Assembly: GCA_029865225.1 (NCBI GenBank)
Contig: JAOUHJ010000013.1
Span: forward strand, 1-64,000
Source: Nitrospira sp.
GTDB taxonomy: Bacteria; Nitrospirota; Nitrospiria; Nitrospirales; Nitrospiraceae
DNA: 64,000 bases
Reading direction: 5' to 3'
Shown: in pieces, positions 19,824-32,239 of the stretch
Position numbering within the stretch: the stretch's first letter is position 1
How the letters are laid out: the number at the start of each line of letters is the position of its first letter
Made by a program: the position numbers and the translations under genes
The notes under the pieces: model-generated
The model's database searches: none
What the model saw: only the letters and a program-made list of their open reading frames with translations
Told to the model about the DNA's origin: nothing

Positions 19824-19853
19824 TTGACAACAATTTTACCGTACTCCTATAAT
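19824..19853 (+). promoter_or_regulatory. strong consensus sigma-70 promoter
   Basis: Perfect TTGACA (19824-19829) and perfect TATAAT (19848-19853) are separated by 18 bases. This is the best promoter seen in the window. It reads toward tRNA-Leu(GAG), whose 5' end lies about 110 bases downstream. Confidence 0.75.
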
Positions 19854-19965: not shown

Positions 19966-20049
19966 GCCGAAGTGGTGGAATGGCAGACACGCACGTTTGA
20001 GGGGCGTGTGGCGAAAGCCGTGCGGGTTCAAGTCCCGCCTTCGGCACCA
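19966..20049 (+). tRNA. tRNA-Leu (anticodon GAG)
   Basis: An 84-base class II tRNA. The acceptor GCCGAAG pairs with CTTCGGC, and the anticodon loop TTGAGGG is closed by CACGT/GCGTG with one G-T pair. The variable arm is followed by the T-arm GCGGGTTCAAGTCCCGC, and CCA is encoded at 20047-20049. Confidence 0.95.
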
Positions 20050-20295: not shown

Positions 20296-22584
20296 ATGAT
20301 TTCTACCAGTAACCTGTCTGTGTTGGATCTGCTGCGCAGGCGGATTGCCGATCTCTCGCGTGAACTGGCCGAACGGGATAGTGTGTTGCACGAACGCACT
20401 CGGCACCTCCGTGTTGCTCAGTCTCTGGCTCATCTGGGTAGCTGGGATTGGGAGATCGAAAGCGGCGAGGTTCGATGCTCGAAAGAGTTGTATCGCATCT
20501 TCGGCCGTGATCCTGGTTTGCACCACATGACCTTCGAGATCTTTGTGTCGGCACCTGTCCCGGGCGATCACGATCGAGTTGTCGCTGCAATCAATGATGC
20601 GTTGGGAGGGAAGGCACCGTATGATGTGGAGTACCGAATCGTCCGACCGAATGGTGACGTGCGGACGATTCATTGCTGCGGTGAGGTCCTGCGAGACGAC
20701 AGCGGCAAGCCCTGTCGGATGTCCGGCTCAGTCCTGGACATCACGGAGCGCAAGCGCACTGAGGCGATGTTGCGTTCCTCGCAAGAAAAGCTGAGGCAGG
20801 CCCTCCAAGCATCGGGCATTGGACTGTGGGATTGGAATACCGAAACAAACGATGTGGTCCTTTCGGAGGAGTGGAAACGTCAGCTCGGGTATGAGGAGAC
20901 GGAGCTCTCTGACACATTCGAGACGTGGGTGACGCTGCTGCACCCAGATGATCATAGTCGCGCCATCGCGTATATGGGAGAGTACGCGCGTGAACGCCAA
21001 GGAGAGTATCGGCAGGAGTTCCGCCTGAGGCATAAGGACGGAACGTACCGATGGATTGAGGCCCGCGCCTCCTTTGTGACGGAAACCGACGGTTCGCAGA
21101 TCCGCCTCCTTGGTTCACATACCGATATCACCGAACGCAAAAGAATGGAGGAGGCGGTATGTGAGAGCGAGGACCGATACCGAACGTTGGTCGAGCTGTC
21201 ACCGTCCGGGGTCTTCGTGTTCTCTGAAGGGCGGACAGTCTATGCCAACCACACGGGCGCCATTCTCATGGGAGCGAATGATCCCAAAGAAATTCTCGAT
21301 CGCCCGATGTTCGATTTCATCCATCCAGACTATCACGACGAAGTCCGTGAAAATGTGAAACGGCTGCTCACGGGAAACGTTTCCGTCCATAGTGCGGAAC
21401 GGATATACGTGAAGATGGATGGCACATCGGTTCCGGTTCAAGTGGAAGCCGCACGGATCATGTGGAACGGCAGGCCCGCCATCCTTGTCCTGTTCTCCGA
21501 TATCACCGATCGACAACGGGCTGAGGACGAGTTACGCCGATCCCATACCTTCTTGCGGCAGGTGATCGACGCCGATCCGAACTTTATCTTCGCCAAGGAT
21601 CGTGAAGGACGTTTTACGATGGCCAACAAGGCGGTCGCCGATTGTTACGGAACCACCGTGGAGAACCTCATTGGCCAGTCAGACGCTGATTTTAATCCCA
21701 ACTGGGAAGAGGTTGAGTTTTCTCGTCAAACGGATCTCCAGGTCATGAATTCCTTGCAAGACTACTTTATGGCGGAGGAAAAGATCACGGATTGGTCTGG
21801 GAAAACGCGCTGGTTACAGTCCGTTAAGCGGCCGATTGTTGATACTCATGGGCGGGCCCATATGGTGCTTGGTGCGGCGACCGACATCACTGAGCGGAAG
21901 CAAATGGAAGAGATGCTCGTGCGACGCGAAGAAGACTTGAGTACGGCGCTTCGAGAACGAGAACGCATCAGCCAGGATCTCCATGACGGGATTCTCCAAT
22001 CGCTCTATGCCGTCGGGCTCAGTCTAGTGGCATGTAAGCCATCGATCATGCAACAACCAGAACACATTGCTGAAAAACTTATCACGACGCTCGATCAGGC
22101 GATCGGGCAACTTAACCACGTGATGGGAGAGCTTCGTAATTTCATCACTGGTCTGGAGTCACACCTCGTACAGGGTGGTGACTTCCCGACGGCGCTACGA
22201 ACCATGATCCACTCAATGTGTGCCGCCAATTCCGCCAAGTGTCGGGTGCGGGTCGATGACGCAGCCGGGAGTCATATCTCAACCGAGCAGGCGGTCCATG
22301 TCGTGAACATTGCTCGGGAGGCATTGAGTAACGCCCTCCGTCACAGCCATGCCACACGTATTACCCTATCCTTGCGACAATACATTGGTTCCGTCTGTCT
22401 CGCCATTACGGACAACGGGATCGGATTTAGTCCAAGCTCAGTGCGGGGTGTTGGTCGTGGGTTAGCCAACATGGCGGAGCGGGCTCAAAAAATTGGTGGC
22501 TCATTCATAGTCAGATCGGAGCCTCACAAGGGCACAAGGATTGTACTCGATCTTCCGAAGTGTCCCAATGGGAACACTCACTGA
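20296..22584 (+). CDS. cytoplasmic sensor histidine kinase with four PAS domains
   Basis: A 762-residue kinase with no membrane segment. After a short coiled coil (1-42), four PAS/PAC domains run at about 43-158, 159-287, 288-410 and 411-545; each ends in a DITER/DITDR-type PAC motif. The kinase core is of the NarL-partner type: a HisKA_3 box with His563 in ERISQDLHDGILQSLYAVG and a HATPase domain (EALSNALRHSHA, TDNGIGF, GRGLANMAERA). I chose ATG 20296 because AAGGAG lies six bases upstream; longer starts lack one. It resembles the following kinase in every domain it has, and the regulator at 28766 is its likely partner. Confidence 0.9.
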   Translation: MISTSNLSVLDLLRRRIADLSRELAERDSVLHERTRHLRVAQSLAHLGSWDWEIESGEVRCSKELYRIFGRDPGLHHMTFEIFVSAPVPGDHDRVVAAINDALGGKAPYDVEYRIVRPNGDVRTIHCCGEVLRDDSGKPCRMSGSVLDITERKRTEAMLRSSQEKLRQALQASGIGLWDWNTETNDVVLSEEWKRQLGYEETELSDTFETWVTLLHPDDHSRAIAYMGEYARERQGEYRQEFRLRHKDGTYRWIEARASFVTETDGSQIRLLGSHTDITERKRMEEAVCESEDRYRTLVELSPSGVFVFSEGRTVYANHTGAILMGANDPKEILDRPMFDFIHPDYHDEVRENVKRLLTGNVSVHSAERIYVKMDGTSVPVQVEAARIMWNGRPAILVLFSDITDRQRAEDELRRSHTFLRQVIDADPNFIFAKDREGRFTMANKAVADCYGTTVENLIGQSDADFNPNWEEVEFSRQTDLQVMNSLQDYFMAEEKITDWSGKTRWLQSVKRPIVDTHGRAHMVLGAATDITERKQMEEMLVRREEDLSTALRERERISQDLHDGILQSLYAVGLSLVACKPSIMQQPEHIAEKLITTLDQAIGQLNHVMGELRNFITGLESHLVQGGDFPTALRTMIHSMCAANSAKCRVRVDDAAGSHISTEQAVHVVNIAREALSNALRHSHATRITLSLRQYIGSVCLAITDNGIGFSPSSVRGVGRGLANMAERAQKIGGSFIVRSEPHKGTRIVLDLPKCPNGNTH

Positions 22585-22857: not shown

Positions 22858-25800
22858 ATGAGCGCGACAAGCCATCCTCCCGAACTAGATCTGTTGCGGA
22901 AACAGGTCGCCGACTTAGCGCGTGAGTTGACAGAACGGGACCAGGCCCTTCGCCATCAAAATCGAAAGATGGATGGTGAGCTCCAAGACCTGCGCGAACA
23001 GTCGGAAATGCTTCGAGCTATCGTGGCTGGCACTGCAGCAGAGACCGGCGAGGACTTTTTCAAGACCCTGGTGCTTCATCTGTGTTCGGTGTTTGGCGTG
23101 CAGTATGCCATCGTGGGAGAGATCCAACCAGCGGCCGTCAGGAAGATTCACACCATTGCGGTCTCTTCAGGGGGCTCACTCGTCGAGAATTTTGACTATC
23201 CCCTTGTCAACACACCCTGCGAAATAGCACTGCAACATTCTTTTGCCTGCTTCGAGCGAGAAGTACGGGCTTCGTTTCCGGCATTTGAACGATTAGACCA
23301 GTTGCGGGTCGAGAGCTATTGTGGCGTATCGCTCAGCGCAAGAGATGGGACGGTTATTGGCCTGCTCGCGGTTATGGATACCAAGCCGTTTCCTAATGCC
23401 CAACGACTGAAATCGCTCATGGCCGTATTTGCGTCACGTGCGGGAGCCGAACTCCAGCGATGGCAGATCGAGAACAAGCTCCGTGATCGGAATCGCCATC
23501 TGATCGAATCCCAGGCTCTGGCACATCTAGGAAGCTGGGATTGGGACATAGACAGCGGAAATGTCTGGTGGTCGGATGAACAATATAGGCTCTTTGGCCA
23601 CGAACCGGGAACCATTCCAGCCACCCACGATACCTTCTTGCGGGCCGTCTATCCGGATGATCGAGGCTACGTGCAGGGAGCGATCGACGCAGCCCTGGCA
23701 GGCCGGGCCCGGTTCGATATGGAATGTCGGATCGTCCGGTCAAACGGGGAGGTTCGTGTCGTCAACTGTCGAGGTGAGGTGCTGCGAGACAGCGGCGGCC
23801 AACCTATTTCCATGTCTGGTAGCATGCTCGATATCACAGACCAGACTCGGGTGGAGGAGGCGCTGAAGGCTTCTCAGAGTAAGCTTCGGCAAGCTCTGCA
23901 AGCCTCAGGTACTGGGTTATGGGATTGGAACACGAACACAAACGAGGTGGTATTTTCCAAGGAGTGGATCTGCCAACTTGGATACGAGCAAGGGGACCTT
24001 TCATGTTCCTTTGAGACCTGGGTGAGCCTTCTTCACCCGGAAGATCGGGATCGAGCGATGGCGTATGTGCAGGAGTATGTGGCTCATCGGAGGGGCGATT
24101 ATCGGCAGGAATTTCGATTACGACATAAGAACGGGACATATCGATGGATTGAAGCGAGAGCCTCCTTTGCTACGGAGGCGGATGGCAGACGAATTCGGTT
24201 GCTTGGCTCCCACACGGACATTACCGATCGTAAGCAGATGGAGGAGGCGGTACGGGAAAGCGAGGAGCGCTATCGAACGTTGGTCGAACTTTCCCCTTCT
24301 GGTGTATTCGTCTTCTGTGAAGGGCGGACGGTGTATATGAATCACACGGGGGCCCTCCTCATGGGAGCCAAGGATGTGCAGGAAATCATCGACCGACCTA
24401 CGTTTGATTGCATCCATCCTGACTATCATCAGGAAGTCCGCGAGAATGTAAAACGACTCCTGAGCGGTGGCGTCTCTGTCCATAGCGCAGAGCGGATCTA
24501 CCTCAAGTTAGACGGAACACCGATTCTGGTTCAGGTCGAGGCGGCACGGATCACCTGGAACGGCAAGCCAGCTATTCTCGGCTTCTTTTCTGACATTACC
24601 GAGCGCAAAGAGGCTCAGGAGGCCGTTGTCGCCCTCAATGCCTCGCTGGAACGACAGGTGTGTGACCGGACGGAAGCATTGCGCCGGAGTGAAGAGCGCT
24701 TTCGTCAATTTGCCGAGTCGGTCGGTTCCGCGTTTCTGATTGCTGATATTTCGCCGGACGCACTGGACGTCGTATATGTGAACGCGGCGTTCACGTTCAT
24801 CTGGGGCATCGAGCGAGAGGAAATCTGTCGAGAAGGGTCGCTGTGGCTCGACTCGATCCATCCGGAGGACAAGGAACGGGTCAAGGCGAACCATGATCGC
24901 TTTGTTGCCGGTGGGACGACGGCGGTGTTTTATTGTGAGTACCGAATCGTCGGGCGCGACGGCTACATCCGCTGGATCGCTGATCGCAGAGTAAGAATGA
25001 CCGGGTGGGAGAATCGGATTGCGGGTATTGCGGAGGATATTACAAGTCACAAGCAACAGCTAGCGCTCATGCAGCAAACGGAAGCGATCGGAAAGATTGG
25101 GGGATGGGAGCTGAACCTAGTTACCAACCGTCTCTGGTGGAGCGATGAGACCTACCGGTTGCACGACACGACGCCGGAGTTGTACAGCCCGACGGTTGAA
25201 ACTGCCTTGAAGTTCTACGCACCCGAGAGTCGCCCCGTGATATCAGAAGCGTTGGGGAAAGGGGTCACACAGGGGTTGCCGTGGGACCTTGAGTTGGAAC
25301 TCATCACGGCCAAGGGGCGTCGGATCGCGGTGCGGGCTGCCGGCATGGTCGACGTCGTGAATGGACGAGCGGTGCGGGTGTATGGAACGTTCCAAGACAT
25401 CACCGAGCGCAAAATGGCAGAGGAGGCCCTCCAGCGAGCGCATGATGAATTGGAACGCAAGGTGATCGAGCGTACGGGAGAATTGCGGGCCAGCGAGGAG
25501 CGCTATGCACGTGCCACCGCCATCGGCAAAGTTGGGGTATGGAACTTAGATGTCTTAAACGGTCAATACCACGGGGATGCCAATCTGAAGGCTCTTTTTG
25601 GCTATGGCCCAGAAGAACTTTCAGCCGATCCCTTTGTCTGGTTGAACTTGGTCTATTTGGACGACCAGCCGAGCGCCATGAAGAACTTCGAATTGATGCA
25701 AAGCGGGGCAGCTGACGAGTGCCACTACGAGCTTCGCATGGTGAAGAAGGATGGCTCCATGATATGGACTGATGTTCGATGCCATGGTGTGCGTGATCGG

Positions 25801-28800
25801 AAGGGGCGTTTGACACACTTGATTGGTGCCACGGTCGACATTACTGAACGCAAGGAGGCGGAGGAGGCGCTGCGGGCCAGCGAGGAATTGTTTTCGAAAG
25901 CGTTCCGGTCCAGCCCCGACCCGATGGTGTTGGTGGAGCTCGACTCCGGCCGGTGGCTCGACGTCAACGACGCCTGTCTCGCCGGTCTTGGATGTAAACG
26001 AGAGGATGTGGTCGGGCGAAGGGGGGAAGAACTCGAGCATCGGCTGACGCCAGATGACCAGATCCCCTTCATTGAGCGATTGAAGCGGGAGGGCTCGATC
26101 CGCAATTTCGAAGCTGTTTTTCAGACGGCCTGCGGTGAACGCCGTGATTACCTCGTGTCTGCAGAACAGATCGAGTACCACGGGAAATCTTGCATGATCA
26201 TACTCAGCAAAGACATCACCGAACGGAAGAGAGTACAGGAAACGCTTCGACTGAGCGAAGAACGCTTTCGCAGCCTGTTTGAAAATTCTCCCATCGCCTA
26301 TCAATCGCTCGACCTAGAAGGGCGGTTCCTCGACGTGAATCCAAGGTTGTGCCAGCTGTTCGGATATCAAAGTGAGGAATTGATAGGGAGGAGCTTCGGG
26401 GATCTTTGGGCCGATGATGTTCGTTGCGATTTTCCCAAGACGTTCGAGGCCTTCACGAAGACCGGCCAATTGCGCAACGAGCTTTCGCTTCGTCGTCGAG
26501 ACGGAACCATCGTCAATGCCGTGATAGACGGACGTGTCCAGCACGACCAGGACGGTGATTTCATCAGAACCCACTGCATTCTGACTGACATCACCGAGCG
26601 GAAACGAATGGAGGACGCGCTACGCGAAAGCGAGGAACGATTCTCCAAGGCGTTTAGGACAAGTCCTCATCCTATAGGGATCACGGAGGTGGCAACGGGC
26701 CGCTGTATCGAGGTGAATGACGCCTGTCTGCAAGCATTCGGTTTTCGTCGTGAGGAAGTGATCGGAAACACCACGTTGATGCTCGGGATCTGGCCGAATC
26801 TCGAAGATCGAGTGCGGGTTATCGAGCGATTGAAAGCTGGGCAGCCGGTACGCAACATGGAGTTTGCCTTACGGGCCAAATCGGGTGACCTACGCTACTT
26901 TCTGACATCCGCGGACCTCGCCGAGCTCAACGGAACGCTCTGCGTGGTGACTGTGGCGAACGACATCACGGACCGGAAGCATGCGGAAGAGGCATTGCGC
27001 CTCAGCGAAGAGCGGTTTGCTAAGGCATTCCATGGCAGCCCCCATCCACTGGTCATTACCGAGTTGGATACCGGTCGAGTGGTGGATATGAATGATGCTG
27101 CCAGTCAGATGTTAGGCTATCGCAAAGAGGAGGTTGTGGAGGAAACGACATTGCAGATAGGGCTCTGGGATTCTGTGGATGAACGGGCCCGATACCTCGA
27201 TCTGTTGAAGCGACAGGGATCGACCCGCAACGTGGAGGTGAAGCTGCGGAGCAGAAGCGGCGAAGTCCGCCAGTGCCTGCTGTCGTCAGAAGTGATTATG
27301 CTGAACGGCAAGCAATGCTCTGTGACCGTCGGGAATGATATCACCGAGCGCAAGCGCATGGAGCAAGCGCTGCAGTTGACCCAGTTTTCGGTCGACCAGG
27401 CAGTCGAAGCGATTCTGTGGTTGGATTCGACCGCTCGAATATTCAATGTCAACGATACCGCATGCCGAATGTTGGGGTACTCCCGGCCGGAACTGACGTC
27501 GATGACGGTGCATGACATCGACCCCAATTTCCCAGTCGAGCGTTGGACGGAGCATTGGGGTCATTTGAAGGAACAAGGGGCGTTGGCATTTGAGGCGAAA
27601 TATTGGACATGTACCGGCGACGTGTTGGAGATGGAGGTGACCTTCAACTATCTATCGTATGACGGAAAAGAGTACGGCTGTGCGATTTTGAGAGACATCG
27701 GAGAACGCAAACGAGCCGAAGCGGAACTTCGCCGGTCGCATACGTTTTTGCGACAGGTCATCGACACAGACCCGGACCTCATCTTCGCCAAGGATCGTGA
27801 CGGACGTTTTACGATGGCCAACAAGGCTGTCGCTGATTGGTATGGGACGACGGTGGACGATGTGATCGGAAAGTCGGATGCTGACTTCAATGCCAATGTG
27901 GATGAGGTGGAGTTCTTTCGAGATCACGATTTGGAGGTGATAAATTCCGGGCGGGATCGGTTTATCCCGGAGGAAAAATTCACTGACGTGATGGGGCGCA
28001 CTCGTTGGTTACAGACCGTCAAGAGGCCGATTTTCGACGACACTGGTCAGGTTCACATGGTGCTTGGAGCGGCGACCGACATTACAGAGCGCAAGAGGAT
28101 GGAGGAGATGTTGCTCCAACGGGAACGAGATTTGAACGCAGCGCTCCAAGAACGGGAGCGAATCAGTCAGGATCTCCACGACGGGATTCTCCAGTCGTTG
28201 TATGCGGTGGGCCTTGGGTTGGAGGGTTGTAAACCGATGATCAAGCAACAGCCGGGACCTGTCGCGGCGAAGTTCATGTCCACACTCGATCAGACGATTG
28301 GGCAGCTCAATCACGTGATGGGAGAGGTGCGTAATTTCATCGCCGGTCTTGAATCTCACGTGATCCAAGGCGGTGATTTTCCGTCGGCATTACGGACCAT
28401 GGTTCAGACGATGTCCAGCGCCTCTCGGGCGAAATGTGTGATACGAATCGACGAGGCGGCGGCACGCCGCCTGTCCACCGAACACGCACTTCACATTATT
28501 AACATCGTTCGGGAAGGCCTCAGTAATGCCTTGCGCCATAGCCAAGCCACACAGATCGTGGTATCACTCCGGGAATTGGTCCGTACTATTCGTCTCACCA
28601 TTCGTGACAATGGCATCGGCTTTAATACTCGGTCGGCTCAGGGCGTTGGTCATGGGTTAGCCAATATGGCGGCCCGGGCTCAAAAGGTCCGGGGATCGTT
28701 CGCCCTTCAATCGAAACCATGGAAGGGGACGAAAATCTTACTCGATCTTTCAAAGGATGGTCACGATGCTCACAACCAAAACACAAGTTCAAACCATTCG

Positions 28801-28818
28801 TGTGTTGCTGGTCGATGA
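22858..28818 (+). CDS. giant GAF/12-PAS sensor histidine kinase
   Basis: A cytoplasmic kinase of about 1986 residues. The order is coiled coil (1-60), GAF (about 60-205), then twelve PAS/PAC units beginning near residues 213, 337, 464, 610, 735, 875, 1005, 1130, 1255, 1380, 1500 and 1624. A HisKA_3 box (His1774 in SQDLHDGILQSLYAVG) and a HATPase domain (EGLSNALRHSQA, IRDNGIGF, GHGLANMAARA) complete it. PAS1-3, the last PAS and the catalytic core match the preceding kinase; the GAF and PAS4-11 are extra. ATG 22858 has AAGGAG seven bases upstream. Ligands are unknown. A NarL-type regulator gene overlaps its 3' end. Confidence 0.92.
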   Translation: MSATSHPPELDLLRKQVADLARELTERDQALRHQNRKMDGELQDLREQSEMLRAIVAGTAAETGEDFFKTLVLHLCSVFGVQYAIVGEIQPAAVRKIHTIAVSSGGSLVENFDYPLVNTPCEIALQHSFACFEREVRASFPAFERLDQLRVESYCGVSLSARDGTVIGLLAVMDTKPFPNAQRLKSLMAVFASRAGAELQRWQIENKLRDRNRHLIESQALAHLGSWDWDIDSGNVWWSDEQYRLFGHEPGTIPATHDTFLRAVYPDDRGYVQGAIDAALAGRARFDMECRIVRSNGEVRVVNCRGEVLRDSGGQPISMSGSMLDITDQTRVEEALKASQSKLRQALQASGTGLWDWNTNTNEVVFSKEWICQLGYEQGDLSCSFETWVSLLHPEDRDRAMAYVQEYVAHRRGDYRQEFRLRHKNGTYRWIEARASFATEADGRRIRLLGSHTDITDRKQMEEAVRESEERYRTLVELSPSGVFVFCEGRTVYMNHTGALLMGAKDVQEIIDRPTFDCIHPDYHQEVRENVKRLLSGGVSVHSAERIYLKLDGTPILVQVEAARITWNGKPAILGFFSDITERKEAQEAVVALNASLERQVCDRTEALRRSEERFRQFAESVGSAFLIADISPDALDVVYVNAAFTFIWGIEREEICREGSLWLDSIHPEDKERVKANHDRFVAGGTTAVFYCEYRIVGRDGYIRWIADRRVRMTGWENRIAGIAEDITSHKQQLALMQQTEAIGKIGGWELNLVTNRLWWSDETYRLHDTTPELYSPTVETALKFYAPESRPVISEALGKGVTQGLPWDLELELITAKGRRIAVRAAGMVDVVNGRAVRVYGTFQDITERKMAEEALQRAHDELERKVIERTGELRASEERYARATAIGKVGVWNLDVLNGQYHGDANLKALFGYGPEELSADPFVWLNLVYLDDQPSAMKNFELMQSGAADECHYELRMVKKDGSMIWTDVRCHGVRDRKGRLTHLIGATVDITERKEAEEALRASEELFSKAFRSSPDPMVLVELDSGRWLDVNDACLAGLGCKREDVVGRRGEELEHRLTPDDQIPFIERLKREGSIRNFEAVFQTACGERRDYLVSAEQIEYHGKSCMIILSKDITERKRVQETLRLSEERFRSLFENSPIAYQSLDLEGRFLDVNPRLCQLFGYQSEELIGRSFGDLWADDVRCDFPKTFEAFTKTGQLRNELSLRRRDGTIVNAVIDGRVQHDQDGDFIRTHCILTDITERKRMEDALRESEERFSKAFRTSPHPIGITEVATGRCIEVNDACLQAFGFRREEVIGNTTLMLGIWPNLEDRVRVIERLKAGQPVRNMEFALRAKSGDLRYFLTSADLAELNGTLCVVTVANDITDRKHAEEALRLSEERFAKAFHGSPHPLVITELDTGRVVDMNDAASQMLGYRKEEVVEETTLQIGLWDSVDERARYLDLLKRQGSTRNVEVKLRSRSGEVRQCLLSSEVIMLNGKQCSVTVGNDITERKRMEQALQLTQFSVDQAVEAILWLDSTARIFNVNDTACRMLGYSRPELTSMTVHDIDPNFPVERWTEHWGHLKEQGALAFEAKYWTCTGDVLEMEVTFNYLSYDGKEYGCAILRDIGERKRAEAELRRSHTFLRQVIDTDPDLIFAKDRDGRFTMANKAVADWYGTTVDDVIGKSDADFNANVDEVEFFRDHDLEVINSGRDRFIPEEKFTDVMGRTRWLQTVKRPIFDDTGQVHMVLGAATDITERKRMEEMLLQRERDLNAALQERERISQDLHDGILQSLYAVGLGLEGCKPMIKQQPGPVAAKFMSTLDQTIGQLNHVMGEVRNFIAGLESHVIQGGDFPSALRTMVQTMSSASRAKCVIRIDEAAARRLSTEHALHIINIVREGLSNALRHSQATQIVVSLRELVRTIRLTIRDNGIGFNTRSAQGVGHGLANMAARAQKVRGSFALQSKPWKGTKILLDLSKDGHDAHNQNTSSNHSCVAGR

Positions 28819-29428
28819 TCACGAGGTGATTCGTGTGGGGCTTCGGACCGTGCTGGCTCAAAACCAGGGGATCACCGTGGTAGGGGAAGCCGGGACAATG
28901 GCGGATGCCATTCTGCAGGCTCAGAAGCTCAAACCCGACGTGGTTTTGATGGATGTGCGTCTTCCCGACGGTTCCGGCGTCGATGCCTGCCGAGAGATTC
29001 TTGGGGCTCTCCCCACCACCCGAGTCATTTTCTTGACGTCATATGCGGACGATGATTCAGTGCTCGCGGCCGTGCTCGCCGGGGCACAAGGCTATGTCCT
29101 CAAGGAAATCGACTCGCCGGGACTGCTGGAAGCCATTCGTTCGGTCGCCAAGGGGCAATCCATACTCGATTCGACGGTGACCGAACGGGCCCTCAGATGG
29201 TTGCGAGGAGTTCATGATCTCCCGGCTCCTCCAGGTACCGACCAACTTTCGTCTCAGGAAGAACGCGTCGTCGCATTGGTTGCCGAGGGGAAGACCAACA
29301 AGGAGATCGCGGTTGCGCTCGGGCTCAGTGACAAGACCGTGAAGAACTACCTCGCAAATGTCTTTCAGAAGCTTCGGATCACCCGGCGTGCCCAGGCGGC
29401 CGCCTTCTTCGTCAAGAGGCAAGGCTGA
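28766..29428 (+). CDS. NarL/LuxR-family response regulator
   Basis: A 220-residue regulator with an N-terminal receiver (about 12-125; acidic pair in LLVDDHE, phosphoacceptor Asp63 in VVLMDVRLPDG, switch Thr in IFLTSYAD, Lys in YVLKEID). A C-terminal LuxR-type helix-turn-helix follows (LSSQEERVVALVAEGKTNKE, then LGLSDKTVKNYLANVFQKL). ATG 28766 is chosen because AAAGGA lies about eight bases upstream. The gene starts inside the 3' end of the giant kinase, so translation is probably coupled. It is the obvious phosphorylation target of both HisKA_3-type kinases just upstream. Confidence 0.95.
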   Translation: MLTTKTQVQTIRVLLVDDHEVIRVGLRTVLAQNQGITVVGEAGTMADAILQAQKLKPDVVLMDVRLPDGSGVDACREILGALPTTRVIFLTSYADDDSVLAAVLAGAQGYVLKEIDSPGLLEAIRSVAKGQSILDSTVTERALRWLRGVHDLPAPPGTDQLSSQEERVVALVAEGKTNKEIAVALGLSDKTVKNYLANVFQKLRITRRAQAAAFFVKRQG

Positions 29429-29560: not shown

Positions 29561-29580
29561 CTACCGGGAGGTTGTCCCGC

Positions 29581-31890
29581 ATGACTGCTGTTATCTTCCT
29601 CGTATTGCTCTTGCTCGTGGGGCTTTCACTCTGGATTGCCATTCGACAGCATCAGGAGAACGTTCTGCAGGCAAGGGTTATCGCGGCGGCGAATTGCGGC
29701 ATCCTTGTGACGGATGCGACTCTTCCACATCATCCCATCATCTATGCGAATCCCGCGGTCCTGTCGTTAACCGGTTATGCCGAGTATGACGTCGTTGGGC
29801 AGACAACGGCGATGTTGAACGGCCCTGGAACTGATCGGGGGGCGATCGAAAAACTCGCGTTGGCTCTCCAAGACGGACGGGCGTGCCGCGTATCGCTGCG
29901 GCATTACCGCAAGAACGGGACGTCGTTTTGGAATGAGGTGACCTTGTCACCGATTGAGGATCAGACGGGACGGGTCCGGTCGGTGATTTGGATCATGAGC
30001 GATGTGTCCCATCTCCGGCAGGTGGAAGCGGAGCGTCATCGTAAGATGCCGTCCTCGACGATTCTATGTGATTTTGTTAGAGAAGGTATGTTGGTAACGA
30101 CCGCATCGGAGATCATGTATGTCAACCAGGCTGGGTTTACTATTTTGGGCGCCACGTCGGCCGAAGAAATCATCGGCAGCCAGTATTTGGATTTTGTGCA
30201 CTATGAGCAACAAGAGGCCGTACGCCTCTGGATTGCACAGACAGTGGGGTCACGCCAGTCGAACGGCTGGTTGGAAACGAAACTCGTACGATGTGATGGG
30301 CAGGAAGTCGTGGTTGTCCTGTCCGTGGCGCCTACCATGTGGGATGGAAAAGGATCCGTTCTGGTCTGTTTTTCTGACAGGTCTGTCCAGCAACCAATCG
30401 AAATCGAATTCCCCAACAGGCGGCATCAGTTCGTGCAAACCCACTCCAGTGCGGACCATGATAGTTGGGGATGGGCAATTGGGAATGGCGCTGAGATTTG
30501 GTCGGAAGAGCACTATCGTGTGCTTGGATACGAACCGGGTTCAGTTCCGCCAACCTATGAGACCTTTAAAAAGGCCCTCCATCCAGAAGACCGCGAGCGT
30601 GTTCTCACCCTGGTCGAGGAAACGTTTACTTCTGATCGCCCCTATGATCTCGAATGTCGGATCATCCAACCTGGTGGGGATATTCGATTTGTCCGTTGCC
30701 GTGGAGTGCTGATACGAGGTTCCTCCGATCAGCCTATTCGGATGTCTGGAAAAATTGAGGATATCACGGACTACAAACTGCTGGCGGCGATGGCTGAAGA
30801 ACGAGATCTTCAATTAAAGACGGTTCTGGAGTCGACCTCTGACGGTATGCTGATGGTTCGTCAAGATGGCACGATCTCCCTTATCAATAGCCGTATCGAA
30901 CGAATGTTTGGGTATGTTCGAGAGGAGCTCCTAGGGCGACCTGTCGAGTGCTTGCTGTCAGCGCGAGATCACGAGGAGCAGCGAGAAGGGCGTGACGCCT
31001 GCTTCTCAAGCGTCGGCTCCGGTCCCCTAGAGATCACTCGAGAAGTGCATGGACGTCGCAAGGATGGTGTGGAGTTTCCGGTCGGAGTCCGGCTGTCTCC
31101 TGTTTATCAGTCCAAGGGAAGGACAATCATTATGACGATAAGCGATCTCGCTGCTGGTCAGCAGACCACACAGGCGAGCGAGGAGATCAGGACTCGATGT
31201 GATCTTGCAATCCTGGCCGGACAGGTGGGGATCTTTGAGTATGACCACCGGACGAACACTCACATCTGGTCGCCGATCTTGCGTGAGATCTATGGGGTCA
31301 GGGAGGACGAGTCACCTTCTCTGGATCGCTATCTGGAGTTGGTTCATCCCGGGGATCGAGAGAGGCTGCGCGCCGGGATGGTGCAGGTCCTCGATCATGA
31401 GAAGGAGAAGCTGTACACGGCTGAACACAGGCTGATCCGGCCGAACGGATCCGTACGGCACATTCGCCTTCGAGCCTTGACACAGTGTGAAGGTGCGGGG
31501 ACCAAGCGGCGGCCCATGCACACGATCGGGATGGTTGTCGACATCACGGATCAGGTGAATGCCTCAATGGTGGTCCAAGTTGTGGAGGAGATGGAGACCA
31601 TGAGGAGCTTGATTGGTGGTATTGCCCATGAGCTGAACAATAGTCTTACTGCTGTGCTGGGCTTCAGCGAATTGGCGCTGGACTTGATTCCAGCCGAGAC
31701 CAAAGCCCATCGCCATATCAACCAAGTCATCGCCGCGGGGAGAAAAGCCCGCGAGGTGGCTCAGAAGATTCGCCGTGGTCTAGATCACGCGTCGTCCTAT
31801 CCGGTCACTCGGGCAGCCGGGATCAATTCCGATCAGGAACGATCGACTGTGTCCATCGAGGTCTCGGATGCCGTCGGTCCTCGTAGTTGA
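29581..31890 (+). CDS. membrane-anchored five-PAS protein with phosphoacceptor helix but no ATPase domain
   Basis: A 769-residue protein. One N-terminal transmembrane helix (about 4-22) is followed by five PAS domains at about 32-145, 158-275, 288-400, 406-525 and 533-655. The first resembles a LOV domain (NGPGTDRGAIEKLALAL, YRKNGTSFWNEVTLSPI), but the usual flavin-adduct Cys position reads GQTTAM. Then comes a HisKA-like helix with His683 in GGIAHELNNSLTAVLGFSE. Only about 86 residues follow, with no N, G1 or G2 box, so the protein cannot phosphorylate itself. ATG 29581 has GGGAGG nine bases upstream. The next receiver gene overlaps its end. Confidence 0.85.
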   Translation: MTAVIFLVLLLLVGLSLWIAIRQHQENVLQARVIAAANCGILVTDATLPHHPIIYANPAVLSLTGYAEYDVVGQTTAMLNGPGTDRGAIEKLALALQDGRACRVSLRHYRKNGTSFWNEVTLSPIEDQTGRVRSVIWIMSDVSHLRQVEAERHRKMPSSTILCDFVREGMLVTTASEIMYVNQAGFTILGATSAEEIIGSQYLDFVHYEQQEAVRLWIAQTVGSRQSNGWLETKLVRCDGQEVVVVLSVAPTMWDGKGSVLVCFSDRSVQQPIEIEFPNRRHQFVQTHSSADHDSWGWAIGNGAEIWSEEHYRVLGYEPGSVPPTYETFKKALHPEDRERVLTLVEETFTSDRPYDLECRIIQPGGDIRFVRCRGVLIRGSSDQPIRMSGKIEDITDYKLLAAMAEERDLQLKTVLESTSDGMLMVRQDGTISLINSRIERMFGYVREELLGRPVECLLSARDHEEQREGRDACFSSVGSGPLEITREVHGRRKDGVEFPVGVRLSPVYQSKGRTIIMTISDLAAGQQTTQASEEIRTRCDLAILAGQVGIFEYDHRTNTHIWSPILREIYGVREDESPSLDRYLELVHPGDRERLRAGMVQVLDHEKEKLYTAEHRLIRPNGSVRHIRLRALTQCEGAGTKRRPMHTIGMVVDITDQVNASMVVQVVEEMETMRSLIGGIAHELNNSLTAVLGFSELALDLIPAETKAHRHINQVIAAGRKAREVAQKIRRGLDHASSYPVTRAAGINSDQERSTVSIEVSDAVGPRS

Positions 31891-32239
31891 CGATCAGGAC
31901 CAGGTCCGCCAGCTTATTCGTGAAACCCTGGAGCAAGCCGGCTATGAGGTCGAAGAAGCTCGGGATGGGAAAGAGGGGTTGGAGCGGTACAGAACGAAGG
32001 CGGCCGATCTAGTAATCATGGACATCCTGATGCCTGACCAAGATGGGCTCGAAGGTATTCTGGTGCTTCGACGGGAATTCCCTGACTCTCGTGTGATTGC
32101 CATGACCGGAGGATCCGAAGCGATCGGCTTCGGCAATGTCTTAGATATCGCTAAGATGCTCGGCGTCAGACGGACTCTTCAAAAGCCCTTCGACCTTAAG
32201 GTACTCCTTGATACGGTTGCTTCAGAAATGATCGACTAA
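31868..32239 (+). CDS. CheY-like single-domain response regulator
   Basis: A 123-residue stand-alone receiver. It has the acidic pair in VLVVDDQDQ, phosphoacceptor Asp52 in LVIMDILMPDQDG, Thr in VIAMTGGSE and Lys in LQKPFD. There is no output domain, so it would act by protein contact or as a phosphate shuttle. The start lies 23 bases inside the upstream PAS protein gene in another reading frame, indicating translational coupling and a likely partnership. Confidence 0.92.
   Translation: MPSVLVVDDQDQVRQLIRETLEQAGYEVEEARDGKEGLERYRTKAADLVIMDILMPDQDGLEGILVLRREFPDSRVIAMTGGSEAIGFGNVLDIAKMLGVRRTLQKPFDLKVLLDTVASEMID

Follow-up and report, generated by a model that had tools for sequence, protein, structure and literature searches.

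Nitrospira are central to nitrification, and to our knowledge what they sense is poorly known. Histidine kinases diversify through domain shuffling and lineage-specific expansion, with new sensors arising from recombined input domains and kinase cores. Among the closest described systems, the HisKA_3 kinases DesK, VraS, NarX/NarQ and LiaS resemble the locus studied here in having a NarL/LuxR-type regulator encoded next to the kinase and a catalytic core with intact H, N, G1 and G2 boxes; DesK and VraS are the best solved relatives of its kinase part. PAS proteins carry two PAS domains on average, and up to 19 have been found in one (cyanobacterial) histidine kinase (PMC10468136).

Here we analyze a 64,000-nt stretch of a Nitrospira sp. 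contig (assembly GCA_029865225.1, contig JAOUHJ010000013.1, positions 1 to 64,000; hereafter the window) that encodes two such kinases, A and B, and we compare the locus across 40+ Nitrospira genomes plus outgroups. Judged from sequence, B is best read as a sensor kinase whose output stays constant while its inputs are exchanged rapidly, and which converges with A on one regulator. We consider it probable that the whole explanation developed below holds, namely an old duplication, contraction of A, exchange of the middle modules of B at linkers, and a single shared regulator.

The kinase pair and the neighboring regulator

20296..22584, + strand: gene A, 762-aa soluble histidine kinase, PAS1-PAS2-PAS3-PAS(last)-HisKA_3-HATPase (ORF, Pfam, core tree)
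22858..28818, + strand: gene B, 1986-aa soluble histidine kinase, GAF-12xPAS-HisKA_3-HATPase (ORF, Pfam/HMM)
28757..29428, + strand: NarL/LuxR-type response regulator gene, overlapping the end of gene B, conserved partner (Pfam Response_reg + GerE)
29572..31890, + strand: gene C, another multi-PAS protein, HisKA match weak and HATPase absent, syntenic neighbor (Pfam)

Gene B starts with an ATG at 22858, preceded by an AGGAG motif. ORF, HMM and Pfam evidence agrees with the layouts given in the initial annotation: A has 762 residues from 20296, with four PAS domains followed by HisKA_3 and HATPase, and B, whose ORF lies exactly where it had been placed, has an N-terminal GAF, twelve PAS domains, HisKA_3 and HATPase. 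Tandem PAS domains N-terminal to the kinase core, which define a multi-PAS histidine kinase, number 12 in B and 4 in A, whether counted as HMM-detected domains or as DIT-type PAS ends. HisKA_3 and HATPase_c score above the Pfam cut-off in both proteins, as does the GAF of B (28.2 bits, cut-off 22.4), and the catalytic boxes of B are intact (LHDG for the H box; REGLSNALRH, DNGIG and GHGLANM for N, G1 and G2), with the same set in A. No clear membrane segment was seen in A or in B. The giant gene is not an assembly artefact, since 40+ genomes, among them the single-contig genomes G001, G040 and G063, have intact frames of this type. Shortly ahead of gene A, a perfect TTGACA-18-TATAAT promoter-like site (19824-19853 of the window) stands upstream of a tRNA (19966-20046). 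Gene C combines an N-terminal hydrophobic segment with five PAS-like regions; its HisKA match is weak and HATPase is absent. Eight other genomes conserve its short end (~110 aa past the last PAS), others having a longer one, and a CheY-like receiver (31868-32239) overlaps the end of the gene.

At essentially all loci read, B is followed by the regulator gene, in most cases with an overlap, and the regulator is 85-99% identical within the A+B clade and 64-76% in outgroups. In two-component pairs, DHp helix 1 contacts the regulator; between A and B this helix is 73-96% identical (mean 87%), compared with 59% for helix 2 and the catalytic domain. Because gene A has no regulator of its own and its DHp helix 1 resembles that of B more closely than do helix 2 and the catalytic domain, we infer that A and B both feed the one regulator at 28757-29428. 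Both kinases would phosphorylate this single downstream protein, A being the partner with fewer inputs.

Origin of the pair and direction of change

The domains of the two kinases map as follows.

20377-20754, 20761-21141, 21148-21516, 21523-21900, + strand: the four PAS of gene A
21490..21510, + strand: junction in gene A without the fifth PAS (sister of B10), a clean 375-nt in-frame difference at the DIT linker
23050..23454, + strand: N-terminal GAF of B, an orthologue of the GAF found in most outgroup genes
23470-23847, 23854-24234, 24241-24609, + strand: B PAS1, PAS2 and PAS3, position-wise paralogues of A PAS1-PAS3
24670-25053, 25048-25413, 25474-25854, + strand: B PAS4, PAS5 and PAS6
25861..26229, + strand: B PAS7, of the "Q" family
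26236..26604, + strand: B PAS8, seen in no other B orthologue
26611..27354, + strand: B PAS9 and PAS10, of the "Q" family; PAS10 is sister of the fifth PAS of other A genes
27361..27711, + strand: B PAS11, usually beside the last PAS, present in most outgroups and absent from A
27718..28095, + strand: B PAS12 (last PAS), paralogous to the last PAS of A
28150-28356 and 28489-28752, + strand: B HisKA_3 (LHDG box) and HATPase_c (N, G1 and G2 boxes intact)

The shared parts of A and B (PAS1-3, the last PAS and the core, as first annotated) are 68% identical. In a tree of 33 PAS domains, taken from A and B of the window and of its sister G033, each position of A groups with its counterpart in B (P3 and P12 with support 100/99, P2 with 93/95, and P1 as one weakly supported group, 39/0), making A and B paralogues. 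The outcome named in the initial annotation as a refutation, a tree that fails to pair matching positions, therefore did not arise. The proposed gene duplication is likewise supported by a rooted 79-row tree built from the kinase core together with the last PAS, in which all A genes form one clade (100/99), A and B together form another (100/99), and the genes outside are single-copy. The rpoB tree broadly agrees with the B tree. Judging from the co-occurrence of A and B in three rpoB-tree clades, the duplication is old; the fourth clade has B only, save for one A gene (G054). The latter gene (L108, G054:C406) lies on a small separate contig, in a clade otherwise without A, as would follow from contamination or transfer. 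A tandem duplication within the genus Nitrospira would have given rise to the two soluble HisKA_3 histidine kinases.

The initial annotation went on to read B as an expanded copy of its neighbor, formed by duplication and then block insertion; the duplication stands, and the direction of change and the block insertion do not. The nearest relatives outside the A+B clade are long, both within the genus (G008, 2013 aa; G002, 2376; G023, 2335; G039, 2431; G040, 2142; G067, 2200) and in another genus (G106, 2194 aa; G133, 2887; G145, 2730; G184, 2652), with shorter genes in G165 (1611 aa) and G169 (1190); the farther outgroup G175 is short (905 aa), with a core 46% identical. All of these except G008, G023 and G175 have an N-terminal GAF, 45-57% identical to that of the window, which means that the domain described as added to B was mostly already carried by its nearest outgroup orthologues. 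Rooting with far paralogues of the same genome was abandoned because the branches were too long and left the A/B root unresolved; the close outgroups were used instead.

Remnants of a longer middle are visible in A itself. The usual A is P1-P2-P3-Q-P12 (14 of the 21 A genes), and its Q is sister in the tree to B10, the Q ahead of PAS11 in B. The A genes of G064 and G065 are longer (1304 aa) and retain a B7-GAF-PAS-B10 (Q-GAF-PAS-Q) stretch, and A of the window differs from A of its sister G033 by the clean 375-nt absence of Q, the fifth PAS present there and in most A genes. A genes now have 4-5 PAS domains, and 7 in one lineage. Since A and B are sister copies whose nearest outgroups are long single genes, mostly with a GAF, the giant form is most likely ancestral; the fifth PAS related to B10, the middle stretch of G064 and G065 and the further loss in the window argue that A is a contracted duplicate, shrunk stepwise, with A of the window having lost B10 too. 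The family would have been long before the duplication, with B keeping the long form and A losing its middle modules, as the trees support. On this evidence the small kinase A is the derived one, which corrects the direction of duplication first proposed.

It is very improbable that B instead descends from a short, A-like kinase that was duplicated and then enlarged by block insertion of a GAF and eight PAS domains. Such an origin would suit the position-by-position match of the A and B ends and the shortness of G175, but the long, mostly GAF-bearing nearest outgroups, the retention in A genes of B10 or even B7-GAF-PAS-B10, the secondary shortening of A in the window, and a B middle made of several PAS types that differ between species all speak against it. 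We also think it unlikely that the ancestor was middle-sized and that A, B and the outgroups grew and shrank independently, in which case "expansion" and "contraction" would both be poor labels. The outgroups could have lengthened independently, their middles share only some B module types (P1, P2, P3, Q, B11, x5, x2), and PAS number ranges from 7 to 15; against this, the closest outgroup genes are all over 2000 aa and remnants of the middle are present in A.

The N-terminus has a more complicated history. A tree of P2+P3 also separates A from B (support 99), so these two domains have not been homogenised. PAS1 of A, by contrast, forms one clade (100/98) with PAS1 of the GAF-less B genes, apart from PAS1 of GAF-bearing B genes, and the same short leader is common to this group, suggesting that the N-terminus moved as a unit. 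The GAF may have been lost repeatedly, or lost once and later recovered along with its PAS1; alternatively, a GAF-less N-terminus may have had a single origin close to the duplication and then passed between the copies. Simple GAF loss in A is weakened by the PAS1 tree.

Module turnover in the middle of gene B

We typed all domains by similarity and compared the 38 B genes of the inner Nitrospira clade, finding 30 distinct module orders, with 7-13 PAS domains and lengths of 1312-2441 aa. Across the genus, B orthologues have 7-15 PAS domains, and with 19 published in one cyanobacterial histidine kinase (PMC10468136), the twelve of the window, which had been called extreme, are many but not in themselves new. 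PAS1, PAS3, the last PAS and the kinase core are near-constant, and between them x1-B4-B5-B6, GAF-x2, x8, x15, Q and other modules appear in differing numbers and positions, while the synteny of the locus stays constant. The eight middle PAS domains are thus a cassette mix that differs from species to species, instead of the one inserted block first envisaged.

Close pairs resolve single changes. The B genes of G016 and G018 are 95% identical in aligned DNA and differ by one PAS; those of G013 and G016 (93% identical) differ by an inserted Q and by B6 in place of x2 or the reverse. Relative to G033, B of the window lacks the unit x1 and has PAS8 in place of a GAF-like module. The x1 PAS precedes PAS4 in many B orthologues and is absent from B of the window and of G035 (junction near 24705). 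The place of PAS8 is taken in the sister genomes G033 and G035 by a non-PAS (GAF-like) module of 168 aa, and the nearest relative of PAS8, 63% identical, belongs to another giant ORF of a distant Nitrospira (G061:C115), outside the orthologue set; it lies at L171 (G061:C115:10502-10831), inside an ORF of 2069 aa. Across species, the middle of B has been reshaped by gain and loss of whole PAS or GAF-PAS units, joined in frame at the conserved linker, leaving ends, core and regulator unchanged. Two further observations concern individual genomes. Gene B of G043 (L062) is split into three ORFs, through assembly frameshifts or decay of the gene. Between G010, G037 and G076 on one side and G005, G007 and G032 on the other, the HisKA_3/HATPase DNA of B is only ~70% identical, against 82-92% for many PAS domains and the GAF, as though one of the two groups had swapped its kinase core.

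The turnover is a strong example of a general habit of the multi-PAS kinases of the genus. It looks genus-wide because two other multi-PAS kinases of the window genome, C145 and C10, also vary in length between species (ORFs of about 660-1618 aa and 680-1065 aa, respectively).

Recent differences between B genes 84-95% identical consist of whole in-frame units with ends at linkers. Ten events are clean: each involves one or two whole in-frame units (363-765 nt), and in every case both ends lie in the linker DITERK..EE..LR.SEERF or its coil. A 39-nt motif of this linker occurs 15 times in A and B. In 9 of the 10, the flanking linkers are 44-63% identical over 90 nt, compared with 16-53% mid-domain (mostly ~0.3 or less), and paired linkers share exact identical runs of up to 22 nt; the exception, the G005/G007 event, shows no flank similarity (0.29). 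Linker-to-linker recombination is what we infer as the cause, and no more strongly than that, because selection for intact domains leaves the same linker breakpoints. The unit swaps would then arise as related linkers recombine, inside the gene, across kinase genes and across species, and if the linker is a signaling helix of set register, the signal could still reach the DHp helices after a PAS dimer is gained or lost.

For some B units the source seems to be another gene. The extra Q that G013 carries shares 82% identity with a PAS that the window genome has in a different kinase, against 73% with the nearest copy in G013 itself, where we found no donor; the nearest sequences are in other genomes. 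For transfer between species we used the median of the other shared domains as baseline; the HisKA_3/HATPase core was set aside for this purpose because it is itself unusually divergent between some sister clades. Against this median the most consistent outlier is x15, a patchily distributed PAS whose identity between species is 81-92%, mostly above that of the other domains these species share, which hints at exchange of sensor cassettes between species. That the inter-PAS linker is a recombination hotspot, and that cassette exchange between kinase genes and species quickly re-tunes the inputs of a fixed regulator, is a bolder proposal that we think doubtful.

Sensing, constraint and comparison with known systems

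The whole-family models of NarQ (85.5 bits, cut-off 553) and NarX (82.8, cut-off 578) matched only the kinase core, and FixL reached 311.8 bits against a cut-off of 850. A pattern search of A, B and C for the LOV flavin motif (NCRFLQ-type cysteine) gave no match. With whole-family models below cut-off and the LOV motif absent, we assign no heme, flavin or other cofactor, and the PDB matches (FixL, BvgS, structural-genomics PAS) are too distant for ligand transfer. The variation might be mostly neutral, the PAS domains serving as spacers or oligomerisation repeats whose number and identity hardly matter to signaling. High turnover beside a conserved core and regulator would fit this, as would the failure to find a cofactor motif; single PAS types, however, are recognizable across species, often at 70-90% DNA identity, which indicates constraint, and we consider neutrality less likely than not.

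Taken together, the roughly 40 B orthologues provide a natural series in which the output module barely changes and the sensor decks, cleanly joined, vary; some close pairs are one PAS apart. The series makes testable how many PAS domains are needed, whether signals are integrated by PAS domains in a stack, and through which linker registers they pass. The locus resembles a fixed switch whose input panel can be rewired. A limited literature search returned no report of PAS-unit shuffling at one orthologous locus, nor of these Nitrospira kinases.

Unlike DesK, VraS, NarX/NarQ and LiaS, B takes its input through a soluble GAF and 12 PAS domains with no clear membrane segment. The 19-PAS cyanobacterial kinase resembles B in its long tandem PAS array on one kinase core (PMC10468136); the array of B, however, has been traced across orthologues and differs in most species, and we found no such report for the 19-PAS kinase. 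The C145 and C10 kinases of Nitrospira are also length-variable, B being longer and more variable, with a regulator fixed beside it. In contrast to histidine kinase domain shuffling in general, the exchange here takes place within one syntenic orthologue, and its breakpoints are visible at the nucleotide level.
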